A stretch of 64,000 bases of DNA, from the NCBI GenBank assembly GCA_026986775.1, contig JALSNX010000001.1, positions 124,001 through 188,000 on the forward strand, in the 5' to 3' direction. A program made the position numbers and the translations under genes. Shown one piece after another: positions 4,675 to 50,996 of the stretch (positions within the stretch are counted from its first letter, which is position 1; each line of letters opens with the position of its first letter). Source of the stretch: Caldifarciminota bacterium (GTDB lineage: Bacteria > Hydrothermota > Hydrothermia > UBA1063 > CAJXJZ01). The notes beneath the pieces were generated by a model. That model was not told where the DNA came from, did no database searches, and was given only the letters and a program-made list of their open reading frames with translations.

Positions 4675-5318
4675 TTTTCGTCAAAACCTTTAATTGTCAC
4701 GGATACAGATTTAGGGAGAACAGGATTCTTTATAATTTCAGGGAGGCTATCCTGCAGGATAATCCTGACACTGTCAAAAACAAAGAGTTCCGTATCCTGT
4801 GTGGTAATACTTGTAATTTTTTTGGGAAAAAACAGTGAATCTCTCAACATAATATATTCAAAAACCCTTGTTGAATACAATGTTCTGCCCTTAGCATTTT
4901 CAACAGTAACCTCAAACACCCTTCCCTTTTTATCATACACTATCTTGAGGGTCGTTTTCCGTTTCTCATGAGTCCAGTAACTTACAATGGTATCTCCCTT
5001 TTTCTCCTTTCTGAGGAAAATATATCCGGATTTTCTGAGCAGTCCTATGGCCTCTTTCAAATCAGTGGCAATTCTATTCTGATTTATTATATTCTGCAAA
5101 GACTTTATTTTAAAGGCCTTTTTTCTGTCAGGGTAGTACACTATCATGGTATCAGCAGAATACGTAATTACCTGTTTTAGTGGCGTATCTATAACAAAAG
5201 ACATGGCACCATACTGTGGTTTGTAGAATCTACCTGCTACCGTATCACTGCTTATACTTGAAGAGTAAAACCTTGTAAACTGTCCTCCAATCCAGAAAGA
5301 AATAAGGATGTAAAGCAT
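4671..5318 (-). CDS. LolA-like periplasmic lipoprotein carrier homolog
   Basis: A 215-aa exported protein, first of a minus-strand operon. After a short signal peptide comes a beta-rich domain with the LolA/LolB pattern: a strand with F-x-x-P (RFYKPQYGAMSFVIDTP), then the motif SADTMIVYYPDRKKAF, then LRKSGYIFL and an ITSITTQDTELFVFDSV strand pair. LolA carries lipoproteins from inner to outer membrane. The match is by pattern of strands rather than by strong motifs, so confidence is moderate. The four-base overlap with yidD suggests a shared envelope role. Confidence 0.55.
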   Translation of the reverse strand: MLYILISFWIGGQFTRFYSSSISSDTVAGRFYKPQYGAMSFVIDTPLKQVITYSADTMIVYYPDRKKAFKIKSLQNIINQNRIATDLKEAIGLLRKSGYIFLRKEKKGDTIVSYWTHEKRKTTLKIVYDKKGRVFEVTVENAKGRTLYSTRVFEYIMLRDSLFFPKKITSITTQDTELFVFDSVRIILQDSLPEIIKNPVLPKSVSVTIKGFDEK

Positions 5319-29420: not shown

Positions 29421-29778
29421 TTTCAAATCACTCGAGCGATTGAGAGCAAAACTGGCGTGGGAGTTTATCAATTCTATTGAAAATCAACTTGACAAACTTA
29501 CAACACATATCAGAGAACTGCCAGCAGTTATTCTGACATCGGGTTTTGGTCAGGCCGTTGCCTTTTATCTTTCAAAGAACGACTACAAAAAAATTATTGA
29601 CAATGTGGCCGAAGCACTTTCAGAAATTACAAAGATAGAAGGGATAACCTGCGGAAAGGATTTGCTTGAAAAAATCAGAACATCAAATCATGAAACTTAC
29701 ATCCTTCTTTCCAACGAAGCCCTGAAATATGCCATATGGCTTAAGAGACTGGCTGAAGCAATGGAGGTGGAAAAATGA
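29413..29778 (+). CDS. cmr5: Cmr5 (type III-B small subunit)
   Basis: A 121-aa all-helical small subunit that lines the target RNA groove. LRAKLAWEFINSIENQ and the central IRELPAVILTSGFGQAVAFYL match Cmr5. It overlaps cmr4 and cmr6. Confidence 0.9.
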   Translation: MSDFKSLERLRAKLAWEFINSIENQLDKLTTHIRELPAVILTSGFGQAVAFYLSKNDYKKIIDNVAEALSEITKIEGITCGKDLLEKIRTSNHETYILLSNEALKYAIWLKRLAEAMEVEK

Positions 29779-30905
29779 GTAATACACAAAATAAAGTGTT
29801 TGTTGAAGAATCTATTATACCTATACCAAGATGCCCTTATTTTATAAAAAGAGTTTGGAGCATAAAGGAAAAAGAAACAAAGGGAAAAGAAAGTAAAAAA
29901 ACAAATAAAGTGATTATAGAAAAAAGGGGTCTTATAAATTATGAAATTGTGTTTATAAATAAGAAGGGAGACAAAGATAATAGAAGTAGTTTTAACTTCT
30001 CTCTGGCTTTTTACAGATATGCCCCTGACATATCAGAAAATCTTTCCGAATCTAAAAGAGCGTGGCTGAATACACTCGCTGATAAATACAATTTAAGCCC
30101 TGAGACCATTCCAGAAGGGCATATTTATCATTTGATTTCTGATGGAGGCAACGAAGACGAAATTAAGAACAGGATTAAAAACTCCGTTTTTTCAAATGGA
30201 AGCGAGGTAGAAGTTATTACCATGCAGACCGCCCAGCCCCTCATCATTGGGCTTGGTGAGGCATCTCCATACGAGACCGGCATCACCCTTGATTTCCTGA
30301 CAGGCCTGCCAATAATCCCGGGAAGTACATTGAAGGGCATTACAAGACGAGCAGCGATTATGATTTACGGAGCAGAATATTGGGATAAATTCACATCAGA
30401 TTTTGAGAAAAAATTTAGTTATCAGCCGGAGATTAAGCAATTCAATGGTTTAAAATACCTTGATTTATTGCCATACGGAGAAGAATTTGCTTTTGTGGCT
30501 GACCAGATAGAAAACCACTTTGTTCCTGCCTCATTTACCGAAATCTTTGGCACACAGGACAAAAAAGGCAAAGTTATTTTCATGGATGCCTATCCAGTTA
30601 ATTGGGATAACGATCCTGATAAAAAACTATTCCGCCTTGATGTTATGAACCCCCATTACGGACCTTATTATTCCAACGAGGGTTGGGATAAAAAAGAGAA
30701 AAGGCCTGTTCCACCAGGAGATTGGTATAATCCCATTCCGATTTTTTATTTAACTGTGAATGTTGGCGTTAAATACCGCTTCATCCTTGCGGGGAAAGAC
30801 AACGGTTTACTAAAAATAGCTGAAAATTGGCTCAAATTCGCCCTCACCGAAATCGGCATCGGCGCCAAAGGGAATCAGGGGTATGGGGTGTTTGGGGAGG
30901 TTTGA
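29775..30905 (+). CDS. cmr6: Cmr6 (type III-B RAMP subunit)
   Basis: A 376-aa Cas7-group protein. The core is PLIIGLGEASPYETGITLDF with LPIIPGSTLKGITRRAA, and the end GIGAKGNQGYGVFGEV is the glycine loop. The first 140 residues are a charged, lysine-rich extension with lower GC than the surroundings. It would sit near Cmr1 at the 3' end of the filament. The start overlaps cmr5 (ATGA). Confidence 0.9.
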   Translation: MSNTQNKVFVEESIIPIPRCPYFIKRVWSIKEKETKGKESKKTNKVIIEKRGLINYEIVFINKKGDKDNRSSFNFSLAFYRYAPDISENLSESKRAWLNTLADKYNLSPETIPEGHIYHLISDGGNEDEIKNRIKNSVFSNGSEVEVITMQTAQPLIIGLGEASPYETGITLDFLTGLPIIPGSTLKGITRRAAIMIYGAEYWDKFTSDFEKKFSYQPEIKQFNGLKYLDLLPYGEEFAFVADQIENHFVPASFTEIFGTQDKKGKVIFMDAYPVNWDNDPDKKLFRLDVMNPHYGPYYSNEGWDKKEKRPVPPGDWYNPIPIFYLTVNVGVKYRFILAGKDNGLLKIAENWLKFALTEIGIGAKGNQGYGVFGEV

Positions 30906-38603: not shown

Positions 38604-38984
38604 ATGCTTATACTCAACTTTTCGCATCCCCTGACTGATGAACAAATTGGTCAAATTCAGGAGATAACGGGTCAGAAAATTGATGAAGTCAGGCAGATAC
38701 AGACACATTTTGACAACGAAAAGCCATTTGATGAGCAGGTGGAAGAGGTTATAAAGGCGTGTAATCTCACATCTCTGGAGTGGCAAACCCTTCCCACTCT
38801 TATCGTGCCGCCGGCGTTTAACTTTATCGCCGTAACTCTCCTTGCCGCACTTCACGGTCTTATAGGCTACTTTCCGCCTGTTATTCGCCTTAAACCCGTC
38901 AAAGACACGGTTCCCCCACGGTTTGAAGTCGCCGAGATAATAAATCTCCAGCAGGTAAGAGAAAAATTTCGGCAAAAAAGATAG
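38604..38984 (+). CDS. csx15: Csx15-like type III accessory protein
   Basis: A 126-aa protein whose start MLILNFSHPLTDEQIGQI, central EWQTLPTLIVPPAFNF, LLAALHGLIGYFPPVIRL and PPRFEVAEIINLQ match what I know as Csx15. Csx15 is a small type III accessory predicted to bind or remove the cyclic oligoadenylate signal. Its position right after csx1 fits a role in damping that effector. A GGAGG site is present; the operon ends here. Confidence 0.75.
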   Translation: MLILNFSHPLTDEQIGQIQEITGQKIDEVRQIQTHFDNEKPFDEQVEEVIKACNLTSLEWQTLPTLIVPPAFNFIAVTLLAALHGLIGYFPPVIRLKPVKDTVPPRFEVAEIINLQQVREKFRQKR

Positions 38985-38994
38985 CGTATTTTAT

Positions 38995-39023
38995 TTGACA
39001 GTAATTGATAACTGCTTTATAAT
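38995..39023 (+). promoter_or_regulatory. Promoter of the type I-B operon
   Basis: TTGACA at 38995-39000, 17-base spacer, TATAAT at 39018-39023. It separates the I-B genes from the type III block and allows independent control. The predicted transcript has about 118 bases before cas8b, which contain a 32-codon reading frame. Confidence 0.85.
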
Positions 39024-39046
39024 TAACTAATACAGGAGTTTAGGGG

Positions 39047-39145
39047 GTGAAGACAAACGCTATAGATTCAGATAAACTCCAATTCACAGGCAACTGGTTT
39101 ATAAACTTGGGAATATTGGTTTTTGTGAATTTAATGGAGGATTGA
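39047..39145 (+). CDS. 32-aa ORF resembling the N-terminus of a Cst1/Cas8b1-type protein
   Basis: A GTG start eight bases after AGGAG (39034-39038). The product contains QFTGNWFINLGILVFVNLME, close to the beginning of CXXC-CXXC type Cas8b1/Cst1 proteins (…DWF-x-NAGI-x-GF…). It ends three bases before the cas8b ATG, inside the cas8b ribosome site. It looks like the surviving head of a replaced cas8 gene, or a tiny coupled peptide. The similarity is by memory of the family pattern. Confidence 0.5.
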   Translation: MKTNAIDSDKLQFTGNWFINLGILVFVNLMED

Positions 39146-39147
39146 GC

Positions 39148-40890
39148 ATGATAGCAACACTTATTCAAATCGGTAAAGCCATGAGAGACGCCTATCCCAT
39201 GCCATTTGTTGAAGTTCCTTACAAAGGAGTTAGAGAGAGCATGGATGAGCCTAAAGTAATTGTAGTAGAATTAGATAATCGTGAAGGGAGTCTAAGCCTT
39301 AAAAAGATTTATCTGGCTGACTACAGTGTCGAAGATGCCAAAAACAAATATTTTTTCAGGTCCGGGAAATCTAAAGGGGCCGCACCGACTTTGAGCTTTA
39401 AATTACCTCCGAAATCTTCTACACTTAGAGAGCGACTTAAGGTTTTAAATAATCTTGGTTATAGATCAAATGAGGAAGAGTTGTCAATTCGAATAGAGGA
39501 ATTTGCTGACAGATTAAGGAAAGAAAAAGCTATTGGGAAGAATGTACTGGTGGTTTTGAAAATTGATGGGAAATGGCCTTCTGAAAACGAGAGGCTGGTA
39601 ACGGGTTTTATAGAAGAAACTTTGAGAAATCTTGGTGACAATAAATTCCGCAAATTCTGGAAAGTTGAGTCTATCTGTCATGGCTGTGGTCAAAAAAAGA
39701 TAGTTTATGGTGGAGTGGGGGATCTGTTGAAGTTTTATACTGTAGATAAGTATGGATACGCACCTTCATTAAATCCCAAGTATGCATGGAAACAGTATGG
39801 TTTGTGTAAAGAGTGTATACTTGACCTTGAAAGAGGAAAAAGGACAGTAGATGAGTTTCTGAAGTGGAATTTCTATGGAAAAGAGTTCTGGCTGTTACCT
39901 GTATCAACAGGGAATCTAAGAACGACACTTGAAGAATTCAAAAATTTTTATTCTGAAATAAAAGGGAGAGCTCACAAAGAAGGGTATGAGTCTATCGAGG
40001 ACAGATTGATTTACGAAGCCTCGGTCAGGGAAGAGGTAACTTTTTACCATTTTGTGTTTGTGAAAGCTGAAAATCAAGCATTTAGAATTCTCTTACATAT
40101 AGAAGAAGTTCTTCCCTCAGTGCTTGCGCAGTATGTTTACACAAAGAGAGAAGTTGAAGATGATTTCAATAGCTTTCTCCACGAATTTATTAACGATAAG
40201 GAAGGCTTCAGGTTTAATTTCTTTACATCATCAGATTTAAAGGCTACGAAGCAAAAAACCGGTTTCACAGATGAGGACTTTTTTATGCTTGTTGATAAAG
40301 TTTTCAGGCGCTCGCCTGTGGATGAGAGATATTTGATTTCAAAGGCTATATCCCGAATAAGCAAGGACATGGCTGAGGCAGGCGAACATGCCAGGATTCC
40401 ACGGTGGTCAGTTCTTGAAACCCTGCTATCGCTTGAGTTTTTGCTTAAATGGGGCATACTTAAAAGAAAAACTGGAGGTGTTGAGATGAGCAGTTTACCA
40501 TATGCAGAATTTTTTGAGAGGCATGGTGACTTCTTTAATCATCCGGCAAAAAGGGCGCTTGTCTTGCTCGGCGTGATCGTACAAAAGTTTTTGAACTATC
40601 AATACAAAGAGCGCAATTCAACGCCATTTATGAAGGTCCTGAAAAATCTCCGTCTTGACCAGAAGGATGTGCACTCAATCTTTACCGCCCTACAGAACAA
40701 GATGAACGAATACGGGATTGGACACTGGTGGCCTGAACTCCGTGAAGGGATAAGTTTATATTTTATTGAGGGTGGCGATAAATGGCCTCTATCCCCTGAC
40801 GAAATCGGATTCTACATCGCAGTGGGAATGTCTCTCCATTCGCATCCAATCTTTGGAAGAAGCGAAGAAGGAAAATCTGATAATGAATGA
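39148..40890 (+). CDS. cas8b: Cas8b, TM1802 type (type I-B large subunit)
   Basis: A 580-aa protein. The ATG at 39148 follows GGAGG. The start IATLIQIGKAMRDAYPMPF and the general layout match the TM1802 branch of Cas8b. A zinc-finger is suggested by CHGCGQKK and CKECILDLERGK near residues 177-225. Cas8b recognises the PAM and the crRNA handle in Cascade. It is followed not by cas7 but by an MNT/HEPN pair; the stop overlaps the MNT start by eight bases. Confidence 0.85.
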   Translation: MIATLIQIGKAMRDAYPMPFVEVPYKGVRESMDEPKVIVVELDNREGSLSLKKIYLADYSVEDAKNKYFFRSGKSKGAAPTLSFKLPPKSSTLRERLKVLNNLGYRSNEEELSIRIEEFADRLRKEKAIGKNVLVVLKIDGKWPSENERLVTGFIEETLRNLGDNKFRKFWKVESICHGCGQKKIVYGGVGDLLKFYTVDKYGYAPSLNPKYAWKQYGLCKECILDLERGKRTVDEFLKWNFYGKEFWLLPVSTGNLRTTLEEFKNFYSEIKGRAHKEGYESIEDRLIYEASVREEVTFYHFVFVKAENQAFRILLHIEEVLPSVLAQYVYTKREVEDDFNSFLHEFINDKEGFRFNFFTSSDLKATKQKTGFTDEDFFMLVDKVFRRSPVDERYLISKAISRISKDMAEAGEHARIPRWSVLETLLSLEFLLKWGILKRKTGGVEMSSLPYAEFFERHGDFFNHPAKRALVLLGVIVQKFLNYQYKERNSTPFMKVLKNLRLDQKDVHSIFTALQNKMNEYGIGHWWPELREGISLYFIEGGDKWPLSPDEIGFYIAVGMSLHSHPIFGRSEEGKSDNE

Positions 40891-41212
40891 AAGAGAAGTT
40901 AGAAAACTCATAAAATCTATAGTTCGAAGCGAACAGGAGGCAGAGGGTTTCAAAGTTGAAAGAATTATCCTTTTTGGAAGTCGTGCACGAGGCAATTATG
41001 ACGAATTAAGTGATTGGGACATATTTGTAATAGTGAATAAAAACCTGGATTTCCCGCGCAAAAGAAAGTTAGCTTCTAAGATTCGCAGGAAACTTGCTTT
41101 GTTTGACATCGCTATCGGCATAATCATCAAATCCAGAACAGATGTAGAGATGCAGAAGGACAAAGTTGGATACATAGCTTACTATGCACTACGAGAAGGG
41201 ATCGAAATATGA
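40883..41212 (+). CDS. MNT-type nucleotidyltransferase (antitoxin) inside the I-B operon
   Basis: A 109-aa minimal nucleotidyltransferase. The motif VERIILFGSRARGNYDELSDWDIFVIV contains the G-S-x(10)-D-x-D core, complete with both aspartates. The start at 40883 overlaps cas8b; the frame is open to 40766. MntA proteins neutralise HEPN partners by AMPylation. The partner gene follows with a four-base overlap. The active site looks functional, although the HEPN partner is short. Confidence 0.85.
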   Translation: MNEREVRKLIKSIVRSEQEAEGFKVERIILFGSRARGNYDELSDWDIFVIVNKNLDFPRKRKLASKIRRKLALFDIAIGIIIKSRTDVEMQKDKVGYIAYYALREGIEI

Positions 41213-41463
41213 ACGAAGACGATGTAAAAAAATGGATTTTCAAGGCAGAAAACGATTTTGTCATTGACGAACTAACCGATTACGCCATCAATGTCAGATA
41301 CGGCGATGAATTTTACTTTCCTTCTGTTGAGGAGGCCAAAGAAGCTTTGAGGCTTGCGGAGATTACCAGAAATTTTGTCCTGAATGCATTTAAAAAACTG
41401 GGGGTCAGTTTTGATCCCGAAAAGATTTTGAAGGAGGTGCGTGATGAGCTATCTCAAAAATAG
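41209..41463 (+). CDS. Shortened HEPN-domain protein (toxin partner of MNT)
   Basis: An 84-aa protein. The N-terminus VKKWIFKAENDF and the C-terminal LTDYAINVRYGDEFYFPSVEEAKEAL are those of a PF05168 HEPN protein, usually about 130 aa. The roughly 50 residues normally between them (the QAAEKYLKALL-type helices) are absent without a frame break. The toxin fold should be damaged. It overlaps cas7 by 20 bases. Confidence 0.75.
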   Translation: MNEDDVKKWIFKAENDFVIDELTDYAINVRYGDEFYFPSVEEAKEALRLAEITRNFVLNAFKKLGVSFDPEKILKEVRDELSQK

Positions 41464-42460
41464 GTCAGAGTTTTTGTTTCTCTACGATGTCAGGGACGCC
41501 AACCCCAACGGCGATCCGATTGACGAAAACAAACCAAGAATAGATGAAGAAACTGGCCAGGTGCTAGTTACCGATGTGAGACTGAAGAGAACGATAAGGG
41601 ATTACCTTTTGAAGTTAATAAGCAACAATGATGTTCGCCTCAAAGGACAGGATATATTCGTTAAAGAAGTTAGAGACGAAGAAGGCTATCTTTACGATGC
41701 TAAAACTCGTGCAAAAGAATTCGTTGGAGATAAAGAAGGTAAATTCCATGAACTTAAAGAAACTGTCAGAAAAGAAGTAACAAATCAGTGTATAGATGTG
41801 AGATTATTCGGTGCTGTAATTCCTATTGAATTTAAGGTAAAAGGAAAAGAAAAACCTGAGACAGGTTCAGTAATAATGACTGGTCCGGTTCAATTTCGAT
41901 TTGGGCGTTCTTTGCATAGAATTGAGCTGAATTTCATTAAAGGCACTGGAGCTTTTGCTGACAAGTATGACGAAAAAAACAAAAAAGCCCAATTCACTTT
42001 CCGCGAAGAATGGATTGTGCCTTATGCCCTAATCGCATTTCACGGTGTAGCCAACGAGTATGCCGCCCAGACCACACATCTCACGGAAGACGACCTCAAT
42101 CTCATGGTTGAAGCTATGTGGAATGGGACAAAGGACCTGATTACCCGCAGCAAATTTGGCCAGATGCCAAGACTACTCCTCAGAATCGTTTACAAAGAAG
42201 GGGCGGACTTTTACATTGGCGAACTCGACAAACTGGTCAAATGGGTGCCGGAGAACGGCCTTCGCGAAGAGCAGGTAAGAGACATCACACAGGGAACCCT
42301 TGAGGTTGAAGAGCTTTTGAAAGCCTTAGAAAAGCACAGGGACAGGATTGATCGTGTGGAGATCGCAATTCACGAACGCCTCAAGACAAATCCTGAACTC
42401 GTGGAAGCCCTAAAAGCCAAACTCGGTGAAGAAAAAATCAAACTGCTTCCACTATCATGA
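41444..42460 (+). CDS. cas7: Cas7 (type I-B backbone, Csh2/TM1801 type)
   Basis: A 338-aa Cascade backbone subunit. The start SYLKNRSEFLFLYDVRDANPNGDP with PRIDEETGQVLVTDVRLKRTIRDYL is the hallmark of Csh2. RLFGAVIP and QFRFGRSLHRIEL follow. ATG 41444 has GGAGG upstream. It overlaps cas5 by four bases. Confidence 0.94.
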   Translation: MSYLKNRSEFLFLYDVRDANPNGDPIDENKPRIDEETGQVLVTDVRLKRTIRDYLLKLISNNDVRLKGQDIFVKEVRDEEGYLYDAKTRAKEFVGDKEGKFHELKETVRKEVTNQCIDVRLFGAVIPIEFKVKGKEKPETGSVIMTGPVQFRFGRSLHRIELNFIKGTGAFADKYDEKNKKAQFTFREEWIVPYALIAFHGVANEYAAQTTHLTEDDLNLMVEAMWNGTKDLITRSKFGQMPRLLLRIVYKEGADFYIGELDKLVKWVPENGLREEQVRDITQGTLEVEELLKALEKHRDRIDRVEIAIHERLKTNPELVEALKAKLGEEKIKLLPLS

Positions 42461-43209
42461 GAGTAATTTCCTTTAAAATCTGGGGCGATTATGCCCACTT
42501 CAGGCGGCACTACACGACAAGTTCGCCGCTTACCCATTCCATTCCGCCTCCGAGCGCACTGCGCGGGCTTGTGGGGGCTATTATGGGTTTTTCACGGGAG
42601 GAATATCCACAAAAACTCGCTCCAGATATAGCATTTTTTGGAGTCAGACTACTTCGTCCTGTTAAAAAAATCAGGCTGGGTATGAATTACATGGACACCA
42701 AAGACGGGAGCTGGACGCAGCTTGACTTGAAGAAATTCCGTCCCATAGTGAAGAAAGATGGTCACGGCAATCCGAGACTACATACGCAGATTCGCATGGA
42801 GTTACTGAAGGACCCGGCATTTGAGATATTCTTTCATCACGAGGATGACAGTCTGATGGATGAGCTTTCAGAGAGGCTGAAAAGACATCAAACAGTTTAC
42901 ACGCTCTATCTTGGCATCACGGAATGTATTACAAACTTCAAATTTTTGTGGGATGAAAATGTCAATCGGTTTCACGGGGTTTCAAATGTCCTTAGTGCCT
43001 TCAAACTGAGCGCTCTTAAAGGATTCAAGCTTAAAATGGGCATGGGTGTGGTCAAGGAAGCCCTGCCCCTGTTCATCGATTCACAGCGAATTCGGCAGAA
43101 CGGAGAAGAAGTTGTTTTCAACCCGTTTGCACAGCCCTTGAGAGCCGAGATTGAGGGTGCGTTCGTATATCCGGGAAGAACTGATGAAACCTTTGCGTTT
43201 GTGGGATGA
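42457..43209 (+). CDS. cas5: Cas5 (type I-B)
   Basis: A 250-aa RAMP protein binding the crRNA handle in Cascade. VISFKIWGDYAHFRRHYTTSSPLTHSIPPPSALRGLVGAIMG is a typical Cas5 N-terminus (only key parts cited: KIWGDYAHFRR and PPSALRGLVGAI). It overlaps cas7 and cas3 by four bases each. Confidence 0.92.
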   Translation: MRVISFKIWGDYAHFRRHYTTSSPLTHSIPPPSALRGLVGAIMGFSREEYPQKLAPDIAFFGVRLLRPVKKIRLGMNYMDTKDGSWTQLDLKKFRPIVKKDGHGNPRLHTQIRMELLKDPAFEIFFHHEDDSLMDELSERLKRHQTVYTLYLGITECITNFKFLWDENVNRFHGVSNVLSAFKLSALKGFKLKMGMGVVKEALPLFIDSQRIRQNGEEVVFNPFAQPLRAEIEGAFVYPGRTDETFAFVG

Positions 43210-45584
43210 TAGGGGTATTGGAATCACATCCCGGTATCCAACTTAAAACCCATCTCCTGGAAGTTGAAAGGCGAATAAAGGCATTCTGTGAGGATTTACA
43301 GGTTGACGAGGTATTTCAGGAAACAGCCCGTTTAACCGCACTTACCCACGACCTCGGCAAGACCACAGGTTACTTCCAGGACCATCTCAAAGGCAGGCAT
43401 GTCAACCCATCCCTTTCATCTCATGCACTGCTTTCGGCCGTTCTTGCAGTGTGGCATTTTTCAGAAAGCGTTCCGATCTGCATGAAGCTACCTCTTTTCC
43501 TATCCGTCAGAACACACCACTCCAACCTCTCCCAGCTTTCTGCCATGACATACCCAAAACACGAGTGGAAATATCTTGAAAAACAGGTTCAATCCATCGA
43601 TATTGAAGCATTTTTTAACCTTCTGGCAGATCTTGGACTTTCCAATCCTGAAAGCGGTGAACTTCTCCCTGCCTTTCAGGATTTTGCGATCAATTTCTCA
43701 TGGCAAATAGACCAGTGCAGGGGCATTGATATTTACTTCACAACCAACCTCCTTTTAGGTATGCTTGTTGATGCTGATATTCGGGCGGTTATCGGGATGG
43801 ATGCAAATGAAGAACGAGTTGAAATTCCAGACAACATCGTTGACAGTTATATTACAACACTTCCGCAAAAATCAGAGATGGCCACATTAAGACAGGAGTT
43901 CTATAAAACCGTTATAAATAACATTCTGAGGCTGGGTCCTGATAATAAATTTTTGTCTATCACCGCTCCCACAGGTATAGGTAAAACACTCACCGGATTT
44001 TCAGCTGCTGTTCATCTGCGTAACTTGATTCAAAATGTGACTGGAAAAATTCCAAGAATTATATATGTCCTGCCTTTTACAAGCATAATTGATCAGAATT
44101 TTGACGTCATTGAAAAGGTAATTGAGAATTACGGCCTTTCAAAGGAAATAATCCTAAAACATCATTTCCGCTCAAGCCCTGTAAAGAACTATTCTGACTT
44201 TAAAGTGGAGGACATCTGGGAATACCTTGAAGAAAAACATATTTTTAAGAATCCTGATGCTGGAAAATTATTAAAAAAATATGAACAGGCTCATAATCGT
44301 ATAGAAACATGGGACGGCGAGATTATTGTAACTACATTCGTTCGATTTTATGAAACGCTTTTTACAAACAAACGTTCCGAAATGAGAAGATTACACAGAC
44401 TCGCTGGCAGTATTGTCATTCTGGATGAGGTTCAAAATATCCCGGCAGAATACTGGGAAGGGACAGAAAAAGCGCTTAAATTTCTCGCTGATAAATGGGA
44501 TACTCGGTTTATTCTTATGACAGCAACTCGTCCCGCCCTCCTCCAGGATGCGGTGGAACTCACTCAACCCAAAAAGGAGATATTTTTCAGTAAACTTTCA
44601 AGAACATCTCTTAAGATTTATACAGAACCTGTGTCATATACAGAGGTTGACTCATGGCTTTTACCCAATGTGGAATCAGCGAAGAACTTTATGGTTGTTA
44701 TGAACACTGTTCGTTCAGCCCAGGATGTTTACAACCATGTTAAAAAGGCTTTAAGCAGCGAATTTGAACTTTATTTTCTATCCGCCTCACTCATTCCAAA
44801 ACATAGAGAAAAGCGAATTAAAGAAATAAGCGAGAAATTAAGGAATGGCAAGCATTTGGGCCTGATAGCCACTCAGGTAGTGGAAGCAGGTGTTGACCTT
44901 GATTTTGATGTTGTTATCAGAGATTTTGCCCCGCTTGATTCAGTTGTTCAGGCTGCCGGAAGATGTAACAGAAATGCGGCTTCTGAAACAGGTGGCAGGG
45001 TTTTTCTTGTTAAACTTGTCAACCCGATACCCGGGGAAAGACAACTTGCTTCATACATCTATGATGGAGTTCTTCTAAATACCACCGAAGAGATAATTAA
45101 ACATTTAAATGAACTCTCCGAAAAAGACTATTTCAAACTCGTTGAGCGATACTTTCACGAGATTCGTAATGAGGGGAGAAAAGCACAGGATAGGAATCTG
45201 CTTGAGAGTGTAGAATTTTTAAAATACGATGAACTTGGAATGTTTAGTTTAATCAAAAAAGGATTTGAACAGGTTCCCGTTTTTGTGGAGTTTGATTGTG
45301 ATGCTACATATCTAATTTGTAAGTTAAAAGAAATTGAGCGCCTTCCTGTAAAGTCTTACAGTGACCGTATGAATCGAAGATCTATATTCAGGACTATTTC
45401 TTCTGAGATCTGGGGTTATGTAGTTAATGTCCCACTACAGGTTGCCCTTGCAGCTGGCCTGGATACACTTCCCTATGCTTCAAGCTTTTTATGGCTGCGA
45501 AAAGAATTACCGAATTTTAAAAATATTTATCGGGAAGATACAGGTTTCGTGCGGAAAATAGAGCATGAAGCATTTTTCTTATGA
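43206..45584 (+). CDS. cas3: Cas3 nuclease-helicase (HD plus DExH fused)
   Basis: A 792-aa effector nuclease. The HD domain has THDLGK at residues 47-52 and SSHALLSAVLAVWHF. The helicase has Walker A APTGIGKT (257-264), motif II DEVQ (407-410, where DEAH or DEVH is more usual), TATRPALL, and motif VI VQAAGRCNRN. All catalytic motifs needed for DNA unwinding and cutting are present. It overlaps cas5 and cas4 by four bases. Confidence 0.94.
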   Translation: MIGVLESHPGIQLKTHLLEVERRIKAFCEDLQVDEVFQETARLTALTHDLGKTTGYFQDHLKGRHVNPSLSSHALLSAVLAVWHFSESVPICMKLPLFLSVRTHHSNLSQLSAMTYPKHEWKYLEKQVQSIDIEAFFNLLADLGLSNPESGELLPAFQDFAINFSWQIDQCRGIDIYFTTNLLLGMLVDADIRAVIGMDANEERVEIPDNIVDSYITTLPQKSEMATLRQEFYKTVINNILRLGPDNKFLSITAPTGIGKTLTGFSAAVHLRNLIQNVTGKIPRIIYVLPFTSIIDQNFDVIEKVIENYGLSKEIILKHHFRSSPVKNYSDFKVEDIWEYLEEKHIFKNPDAGKLLKKYEQAHNRIETWDGEIIVTTFVRFYETLFTNKRSEMRRLHRLAGSIVILDEVQNIPAEYWEGTEKALKFLADKWDTRFILMTATRPALLQDAVELTQPKKEIFFSKLSRTSLKIYTEPVSYTEVDSWLLPNVESAKNFMVVMNTVRSAQDVYNHVKKALSSEFELYFLSASLIPKHREKRIKEISEKLRNGKHLGLIATQVVEAGVDLDFDVVIRDFAPLDSVVQAAGRCNRNAASETGGRVFLVKLVNPIPGERQLASYIYDGVLLNTTEEIIKHLNELSEKDYFKLVERYFHEIRNEGRKAQDRNLLESVEFLKYDELGMFSLIKKGFEQVPVFVEFDCDATYLICKLKEIERLPVKSYSDRMNRRSIFRTISSEIWGYVVNVPLQVALAAGLDTLPYASSFLWLRKELPNFKNIYREDTGFVRKIEHEAFFL

Positions 45585-50600: not shown

Positions 50601-50996
50601 GGTTTTTCATATGTGTACCTGAATCCCTTTGTGGTTCTGAGCCTACCTAAAAGGGATGGAAACTTCTCTTTATTCTTCTGCGGGTTTTCAAGGTCTGCTG
50701 TTCTGAGCCTACCTAAAAGGGATGGAAACTAATATAGGTATGGCAATAATAACAGAGGTAAAGGCGTTCTGAGCCTACCTAAAAGGGATGGAAACCAGGA
50801 TAAATTTTATATTGTGGTAAAGATTTACTATTGTTCTGAGCCTACCTAAAAGGGATGGAAACCAGGATAAATTTTATATTGTGGTAAAGATTTACTATTG
50901 TTCTGAGCCTACCTAAAAGGGATGGAAACCAAAAGCAGGGCTTGAAGATGCAGAGAGGCAATATTTGTTCTGAGCCTACCTAAAAGGGATGGAAAT
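47631..50996 (+). CRISPR. CRISPR array 3: 51 repeats, 50 spacers
   Basis: Fifty-one 30-base repeats (GTTCTGAGCCTAC...AAGGGATGGAAAC), the last at 50967-50996 with its final C changed to T. I counted 50 spacers of about 34-41 bases. Two adjacent spacers near the trailer (50796-50832 and 50863-50899) are identical. The handle ATGGAAAC is the same as in arrays 1 and 2. The leader is at left, next to cas2. The repeat sequence is otherwise unchanged through the array. Confidence 0.98.

Follow-up and report, generated by a model that had tools for sequence, protein, structure and literature searches.

A short reading frame ahead of a type I-B cas8b gene is very probably the leftover 5' end of a displaced cas8b

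The window, that is, the whole 64,000-nucleotide stretch of Caldifarciminota DNA analysed here, holds a small open reading frame (ORF) between csx15 and the type I-B effector genes; a CRISPR array of 50 exact repeats lies downstream. The features that matter for its interpretation are:

38604..38984, + strand: csx15, last gene of the upstream III-A/Csx1 block (NF040560 CAS_Csx15, E 1.8e-49)
38995..39023, + strand: sigma-70 type promoter TTGACA-17-TATAAT (12/12 matches, consensus scan)
39034..39038, + strand: AGGAG 8 nt ahead of the GTG, likely the ribosome site for the small ORF (sequence)
39047..39145, + strand: 32-codon ORF, very probably the orphaned 5' head of a Cst1-related (PDLC01542) cas8b (translation, PADLOC match, intact-family comparison)
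39068..39142, + strand: ORF segment with homology to PDLC01542 positions 3-27 (hmmscan)
39134..39140, + strand: ATGGAGG, last head-like bases and Shine-Dalgarno sequence of the incoming cas8b, putative exchange junction (intact-head comparison)
39148..40890, + strand: cas8b of TM1802/Csh1 type, the presumed incoming gene (PF09484, TIGR02556, TIGR02591)
41444..42460, + strand: cas7 (Csh2 type) of the same effector module (PDLC00963, E 2.8e-90)
42457..43209, + strand: cas5b (PDLC02096, E 7.1e-53)
43206..45584, + strand: cas3 (PDLC01759, E 9.2e-186)

The small ORF runs from a GTG start at 39047 to a TGA stop at 39143-39145, encodes the 32-aa product VKTNAIDSDKLQFTGNWFINLGILVFVNLMED and occurs once in the genome. 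Its promoter (TTGACA at 38995, a 17-nt spacer and TATAAT ending at 39023) and the AGGAG ahead of the GTG bear out a preliminary description of this DNA, which had credited the ORF with a proper promoter and ribosome site. A GGAGG at 39136-39140 lies within its last codons, 7 nt before the ATG of cas8b (39148), and this ATG begins 2 nt past the TGA of the small ORF.

The same description had likened the ORF to the head of another cas8 family. A profile search of the 32 residues against Cas8 families gave a significant match in agreement with this: using hmmscan, residues 8-32 aligned with positions 3-27 of 574 of the Cas8b family PDLC01542 (E 4.1e-8), the single PADLOC family matched. No match was obtained with Pfam and NCBIfam profiles, nor with the Cst1 profile TIGR01908. 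What the ORF has in common with PDLC01542 Cas8b (type I-B) is the first 25 residues. A full-length large subunit has about 490-630 aa and the frame stops after 32 codons; that is, the ORF is a fragment of PDLC01542 and not a member protein.

We then compared the head with intact genes, scanning the degenerate pattern TGNWF[IV][DN]xG[ILMV] over one genome per species (84,980 species). The scan yielded 28 loci; 26 of these carry the head, most extending into long proteins, and intact head genes occur in Thermococcus, Archaeoglobaceae, DHVE2, Thermotogaceae, Aquificota, Omnitrophota and others. The intact genes start almost invariantly with FTGNWFIDxGILGFVNLMEEVYG. Each of the three intact proteins that were scanned matches PDLC01542 (L036, E 4.6e-294; L033, E 7.7e-192; L044, E 2.4e-93), and every one of the 14 heads detected in 94 Thermococcaceae is the start of a long frame (254-644 aa). 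An AlphaFold model of intact L036 (mean pLDDT 78) has its first alpha helix at residues 12-29, and this helix with its N-cap corresponds to the head. Foldseek comparison of the intact-relative model with the PDB found nothing, sequence searches of the PDB found no Cas8, and no head was found in the plasmid collection. L028, L045 and two IMG/VR matches turned out to be unrelated proteins.

In the PDLC01542 loci examined, such as L032, the gene is the first effector gene and directly follows cas6. The cas7 after it in L032 is of the Cst2/DevR type (TIGR02585, E 2.8e-62), whereas the window has the head only, no body, and a Csh-type module next. The label CXXC-CXXC/Cst1-type, proposed earlier for the ORF, held with respect to the kinship to Cst1 and failed with respect to the motif: L044 passes the Cst1 model TIGR01908 (31.4 bits, cut-off 19.4), L036 and L033 gave no match to this model, and CXXC is absent from all 25 head-bearing PDLC01542 members checked. 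The family appears to be related to Cst1 but not to be of the CXXC-CXXC kind. An intact Cst1-like gene, for which relatives were compared, was found in other lineages and not in the window's phylum, where no intact PDLC01542 gene turned up in 147 genomes; the displaced gene itself is thus unseen, which counts against a replacement. Two loci of the phylum (L005 and L006) have distant intact starts of the NWLYNAG kind; further weak short-query matches in the phylum (L003, L004, L007, L009, L010, L015, L016, L018-L020) appear to be due to chance on inspection. As a separate observation, the Asn codon of VNLM is AAT in 25/25 intact PDLC01542 genes (for example L111, from 501), compared to 59% AAT in gene bodies; a nucleotide-level constraint before the internal GGAGG is possible. 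Moreover, the PDLC01542 cas8b of an Aquificota-related genome (L083 in G154, ~1500-1960) has an apparent frameshift about 130 codons in.

The gene that follows the head in the window is of a different type. It matches PF09484 over profile positions 1-602 of 602 (E 9.5e-98) as well as TIGR02556 and TIGR02591/Csh1, and neither BLASTP nor hhalign detected any similarity when the window Cas8b was compared with an intact PDLC01542 protein. Since the ORF matches PDLC01542 and the two proteins lack such similarity, the head is foreign to the gene behind it. Nor is the ORF a part of the TM1802 protein: the TM1802 profile is complete without it and homologues do without it, including the closer TM1802 relatives (two of the same genus among them), which have no head in the loci read.

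Orphan heads of this kind were found eight times, in both bacteria and archaea:

Orphan 1, the window: head, then TM1802 cas8b
Orphan 2, G027/L030 (WOR-3 MAG): head, then TM1802 cas8b
Orphan 3, L025 (Acidobacteria MAG): head after cas6, then PDLC01589 Cas8b (E 1.4e-11; 79-aa fragment at contig end)
Orphan 4, G428 (1.44-Mb contig): 40-codon head after cas6, then PDLC01589 Cas8b (E 2.8e-211)
Orphan 5, L041/G165 (DHVE2): head after a cas6-like gene, then PDLC01582 Cas8b (E 3e-146)
Orphan 6, G595 (gene order as in L041): head, then PDLC01594 Cas8b (E 1e-174)
Orphan 7, G684 (putatively Archaeoglobus fulgidus DSM 4304, 2,178,400 bases): 56-codon head, overlapping with the cas6 end on one side and with the cas3 start on the other
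Orphan 8, G619: 32-codon head with no adjoining cas8

The eight seem to represent about six exchanges. The PDLC01542 profile also matches the orphans of G027, L025, L041, G595, G428 and G684. In G595, the leader residues KKEFSEVVPTGAGAARLEF match L026 and L046, where the head continues in frame; in G684, cas3 is followed by a 357-aa ORF without family match and then by a Csa2-type I-A cas7. G027 is the only other genome with the head-TM1802 pair, and the frame is open there; that is, the disruption in relatives that would speak against the proposed reading is not seen. As to the earlier suggestion that the promoter was left in place along with the first codons, a promoter directly before the head is borne out in the window, but G027 has different DNA ahead of its head. 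Between its cas6 and orphan head, L025 has one more short ORF (~4830-4930), which contains TLTGNPFVDGG; it gave no profile match and is possibly an even older Cas8 head.

With an intact Cst1-related family that has the same start, an unrelated Cas8b as the next gene and the same start orphaned at other loci, the proposed replacement of one cas8 by another gains good support: the small ORF is very probably the scar of a cas8b replacement by effector-module exchange. A Cst1-related cas8b (PDLC01542) would once have begun at this site, and its body would have been replaced by the Csh-type module (TM1802 cas8b, csh2, cas5, cas3) while its first codons stayed, with the junction presumably at or just past ATGGAGG. 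As the LMEE codons happen to form a good Shine-Dalgarno sequence, the incoming cas8b would have gained a ribosome site and taken over the translated leader of its predecessor. What is left of the head is most likely translated, and its ribosomes would be passed to cas8b by termination-reinitiation.

Concerning the junction, the head extends to ATGGAGG in both the window and G027, with the next ATG 7 nt on, and ATGGAGG is also kept in L025 and G684. One headless TM1802 relative natively carries ATGGAGGGAATC before its ATG, and a 7-8-nt microhomology at the ribosome site is therefore plausible as the junction.

Seven orphans have an effector gene downstream, and in each of them the head stops close to the start of that gene, from 2 nt short of it to 11 nt inside it: TGA, 2 nt and ATG in the window, ATGA in G027 and G428, TTGA in G595, CTGA in L041, TAA directly followed by ATG in L025 and an 11-nt overlap in G684 (the TTG and CTG starts of G595 and L041 were placed in this analysis). 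The joint probability of this geometry is about 5e-4 under a simple and crude null of random junction sequence, with the window and G027 counted once. Since it is improbable under this null, coupling is favoured, and there is a roughly even chance that the head acts as a translation-coupled leader of the downstream gene; such coupling would account for the TTG and CTG starts as well. Like known translation-coupled leader ORFs (overlapping ATGA genes), the head is a short ORF with a Shine-Dalgarno sequence inside and a stop that overlaps or abuts the next start. Unlike other coupled leaders, it derives from a displaced gene for the very function it now precedes, if the putative coupling holds here.

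Compatible with this scar is the idea that the head DNA serves as a homology arm, reused to swap cas8b bodies, with the orphan as an arm that remained after such swaps; this is possible though on balance doubtful. Even in intact genes the head behaves as a fixed anchor with exchanged bodies, as judged from identities, DNA breakpoints and contig ends. Mean identity within the intact family is 96% over codons 1-22, 69% over codons 23-46, 27% in the middle and 45% in the C-terminal part, and some Thermococcus pairs have head and C-terminus in common and not the middle (L112/L023: middle 17%, C-terminus 75%). At the DNA level, three pairs are alike upstream and in the head and then lose all similarity: L026/L046 are 95% identical up to nt 65 with no similarity beyond, L033/L037 96% up to nt 146, and L023/L040 86% up to nt 148, with none up to nt 1062 and then 97%. 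Furthermore, 8 of the 26 contigs stop no more than 350 nt past the head, where 0.97 would be expected; assembly forks would produce such a pattern, although CRISPR loci fragment generally. The strong conservation of the head may, however, reflect protein constraint alone. The incoming unrelated genes have at most a GGAGG-like stretch in common with the head, and ordinary homologous recombination therefore cannot place them.

Alternatively, the head might be a functional micro-protein, a 32-aa helix that is still made and works in trans, perhaps as a small component of the effector complex. All eight orphans keep an open frame with a start, and over 20 codons the heads of the window and G027, the sole pair with head and cas8b, differ by 7 synonymous and 2 non-synonymous changes (dN/dS 0.03, P 2e-4 versus neutrality), compared to a dN/dS of 0.45 for codons 1-57 of cas8b and about 0.1 for its remainder. 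If both heads share one truncated ancestor, the peptide would have been kept under selection for a while, and so low a ratio would not fit a relic in free decay, which weighs against the scar reading; the ratio could instead mean separate origins. Against a micro-protein, the window head has changed D to N and G to V at positions invariant in intact genes, and core changes also occur in the heads of G428, G595 and G619. Counted by hand, core residues changed in 7 of 94 cases in orphans versus 1 of 276 in intact genes found without pattern bias (P 4e-4), which we read as relaxed rather than absent constraint. In addition, the orphan ends are unlike each other in sequence and length, the incoming Cas8b proteins of L041 and G595 bring similar N-terminal segments of their own (FWVDNGIIALYELL and VWMDNAIENFYRIL), and TM1802 relatives manage without a head. 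We thus consider a micro-protein unlikely.

Far less probable still is a programmed -1 frameshift fusing the head to the TM1802 Cas8b. In both the window and G027, cas8b does occupy the -1 frame relative to the head, and G027 has G GGT TTT in the head frame, but an ATGA overlap puts the next gene in the -1 frame regardless. We rejected such a fusion, given the non-standard heptamer of the window (G GTT TTT) and a cas8b with its own Shine-Dalgarno sequence, its own ATG and a complete PF09484 match from residue 1. Finally, a chance ORF or a chimeric assembly can practically be dismissed: short ORFs are common and several matches lie in MAGs, but the profile match (E 4e-8), the presence of the head-TM1802 pair in a second, independent assembly whose upstream DNA differs and one orphan in a complete isolate genome (G684) stand against it.

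In situ exchange of CRISPR effector modules is established (PMC4390879; PMC12669027), and there, as in the window, the effector module is replaced while neighbouring genes stay. In those studies, exchange is inferred from discordant trees or Cas1 co-occurrence; the window instead has a physical 5' scar inside the displaced gene, repeated elsewhere at nearly the same codons. Module exchange is accepted but mostly known from tree conflicts, and in the open-access literature we found no report of an orphaned 5' end as an exchange scar. A recurrent scar would directly mark the prior gene, the break site and the translation of the new gene. More tentatively, and with somewhat less than even confidence, the 5' end of PDLC01542 cas8b may be a hotspot at which effector bodies or whole modules are swapped in bacteria and archaea, the head being a translated landing site with a built-in Shine-Dalgarno sequence and the new gene starting at the head stop. 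If so, orphan heads would be countable footprints of effector exchange. A fixed head with an exchanged middle would be expected if viral inhibitors press on the large subunit. As one scar lies in a cultured organism, Archaeoglobus fulgidus (by putative assignment of G684), the idea is testable.

Some further features of the window concern the surrounding genes. A Cmr6-like gene (29775-30905) precedes a Csm1/Cas10-type III-A gene set, an unusual-looking mix, and the spacer CAGGATAAATTTTATATTGTGGTAAAGATTTACTATT is duplicated in tandem in the CRISPR array (50766-50930). The HEPN-like gene of the nucleotidyltransferase/HEPN pair between cas8b and cas7 (41209-41463) encodes 84 aa versus 150 aa in G027 (L030, 3156-3608), corresponding to an internal in-frame deletion of ~66 aa. 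Between the same two genomes, residues 1-57 of cas8b (39148-39318) are 58% identical and the remainder ~96%, which points to a second recombination breakpoint just inside the window cas8b.
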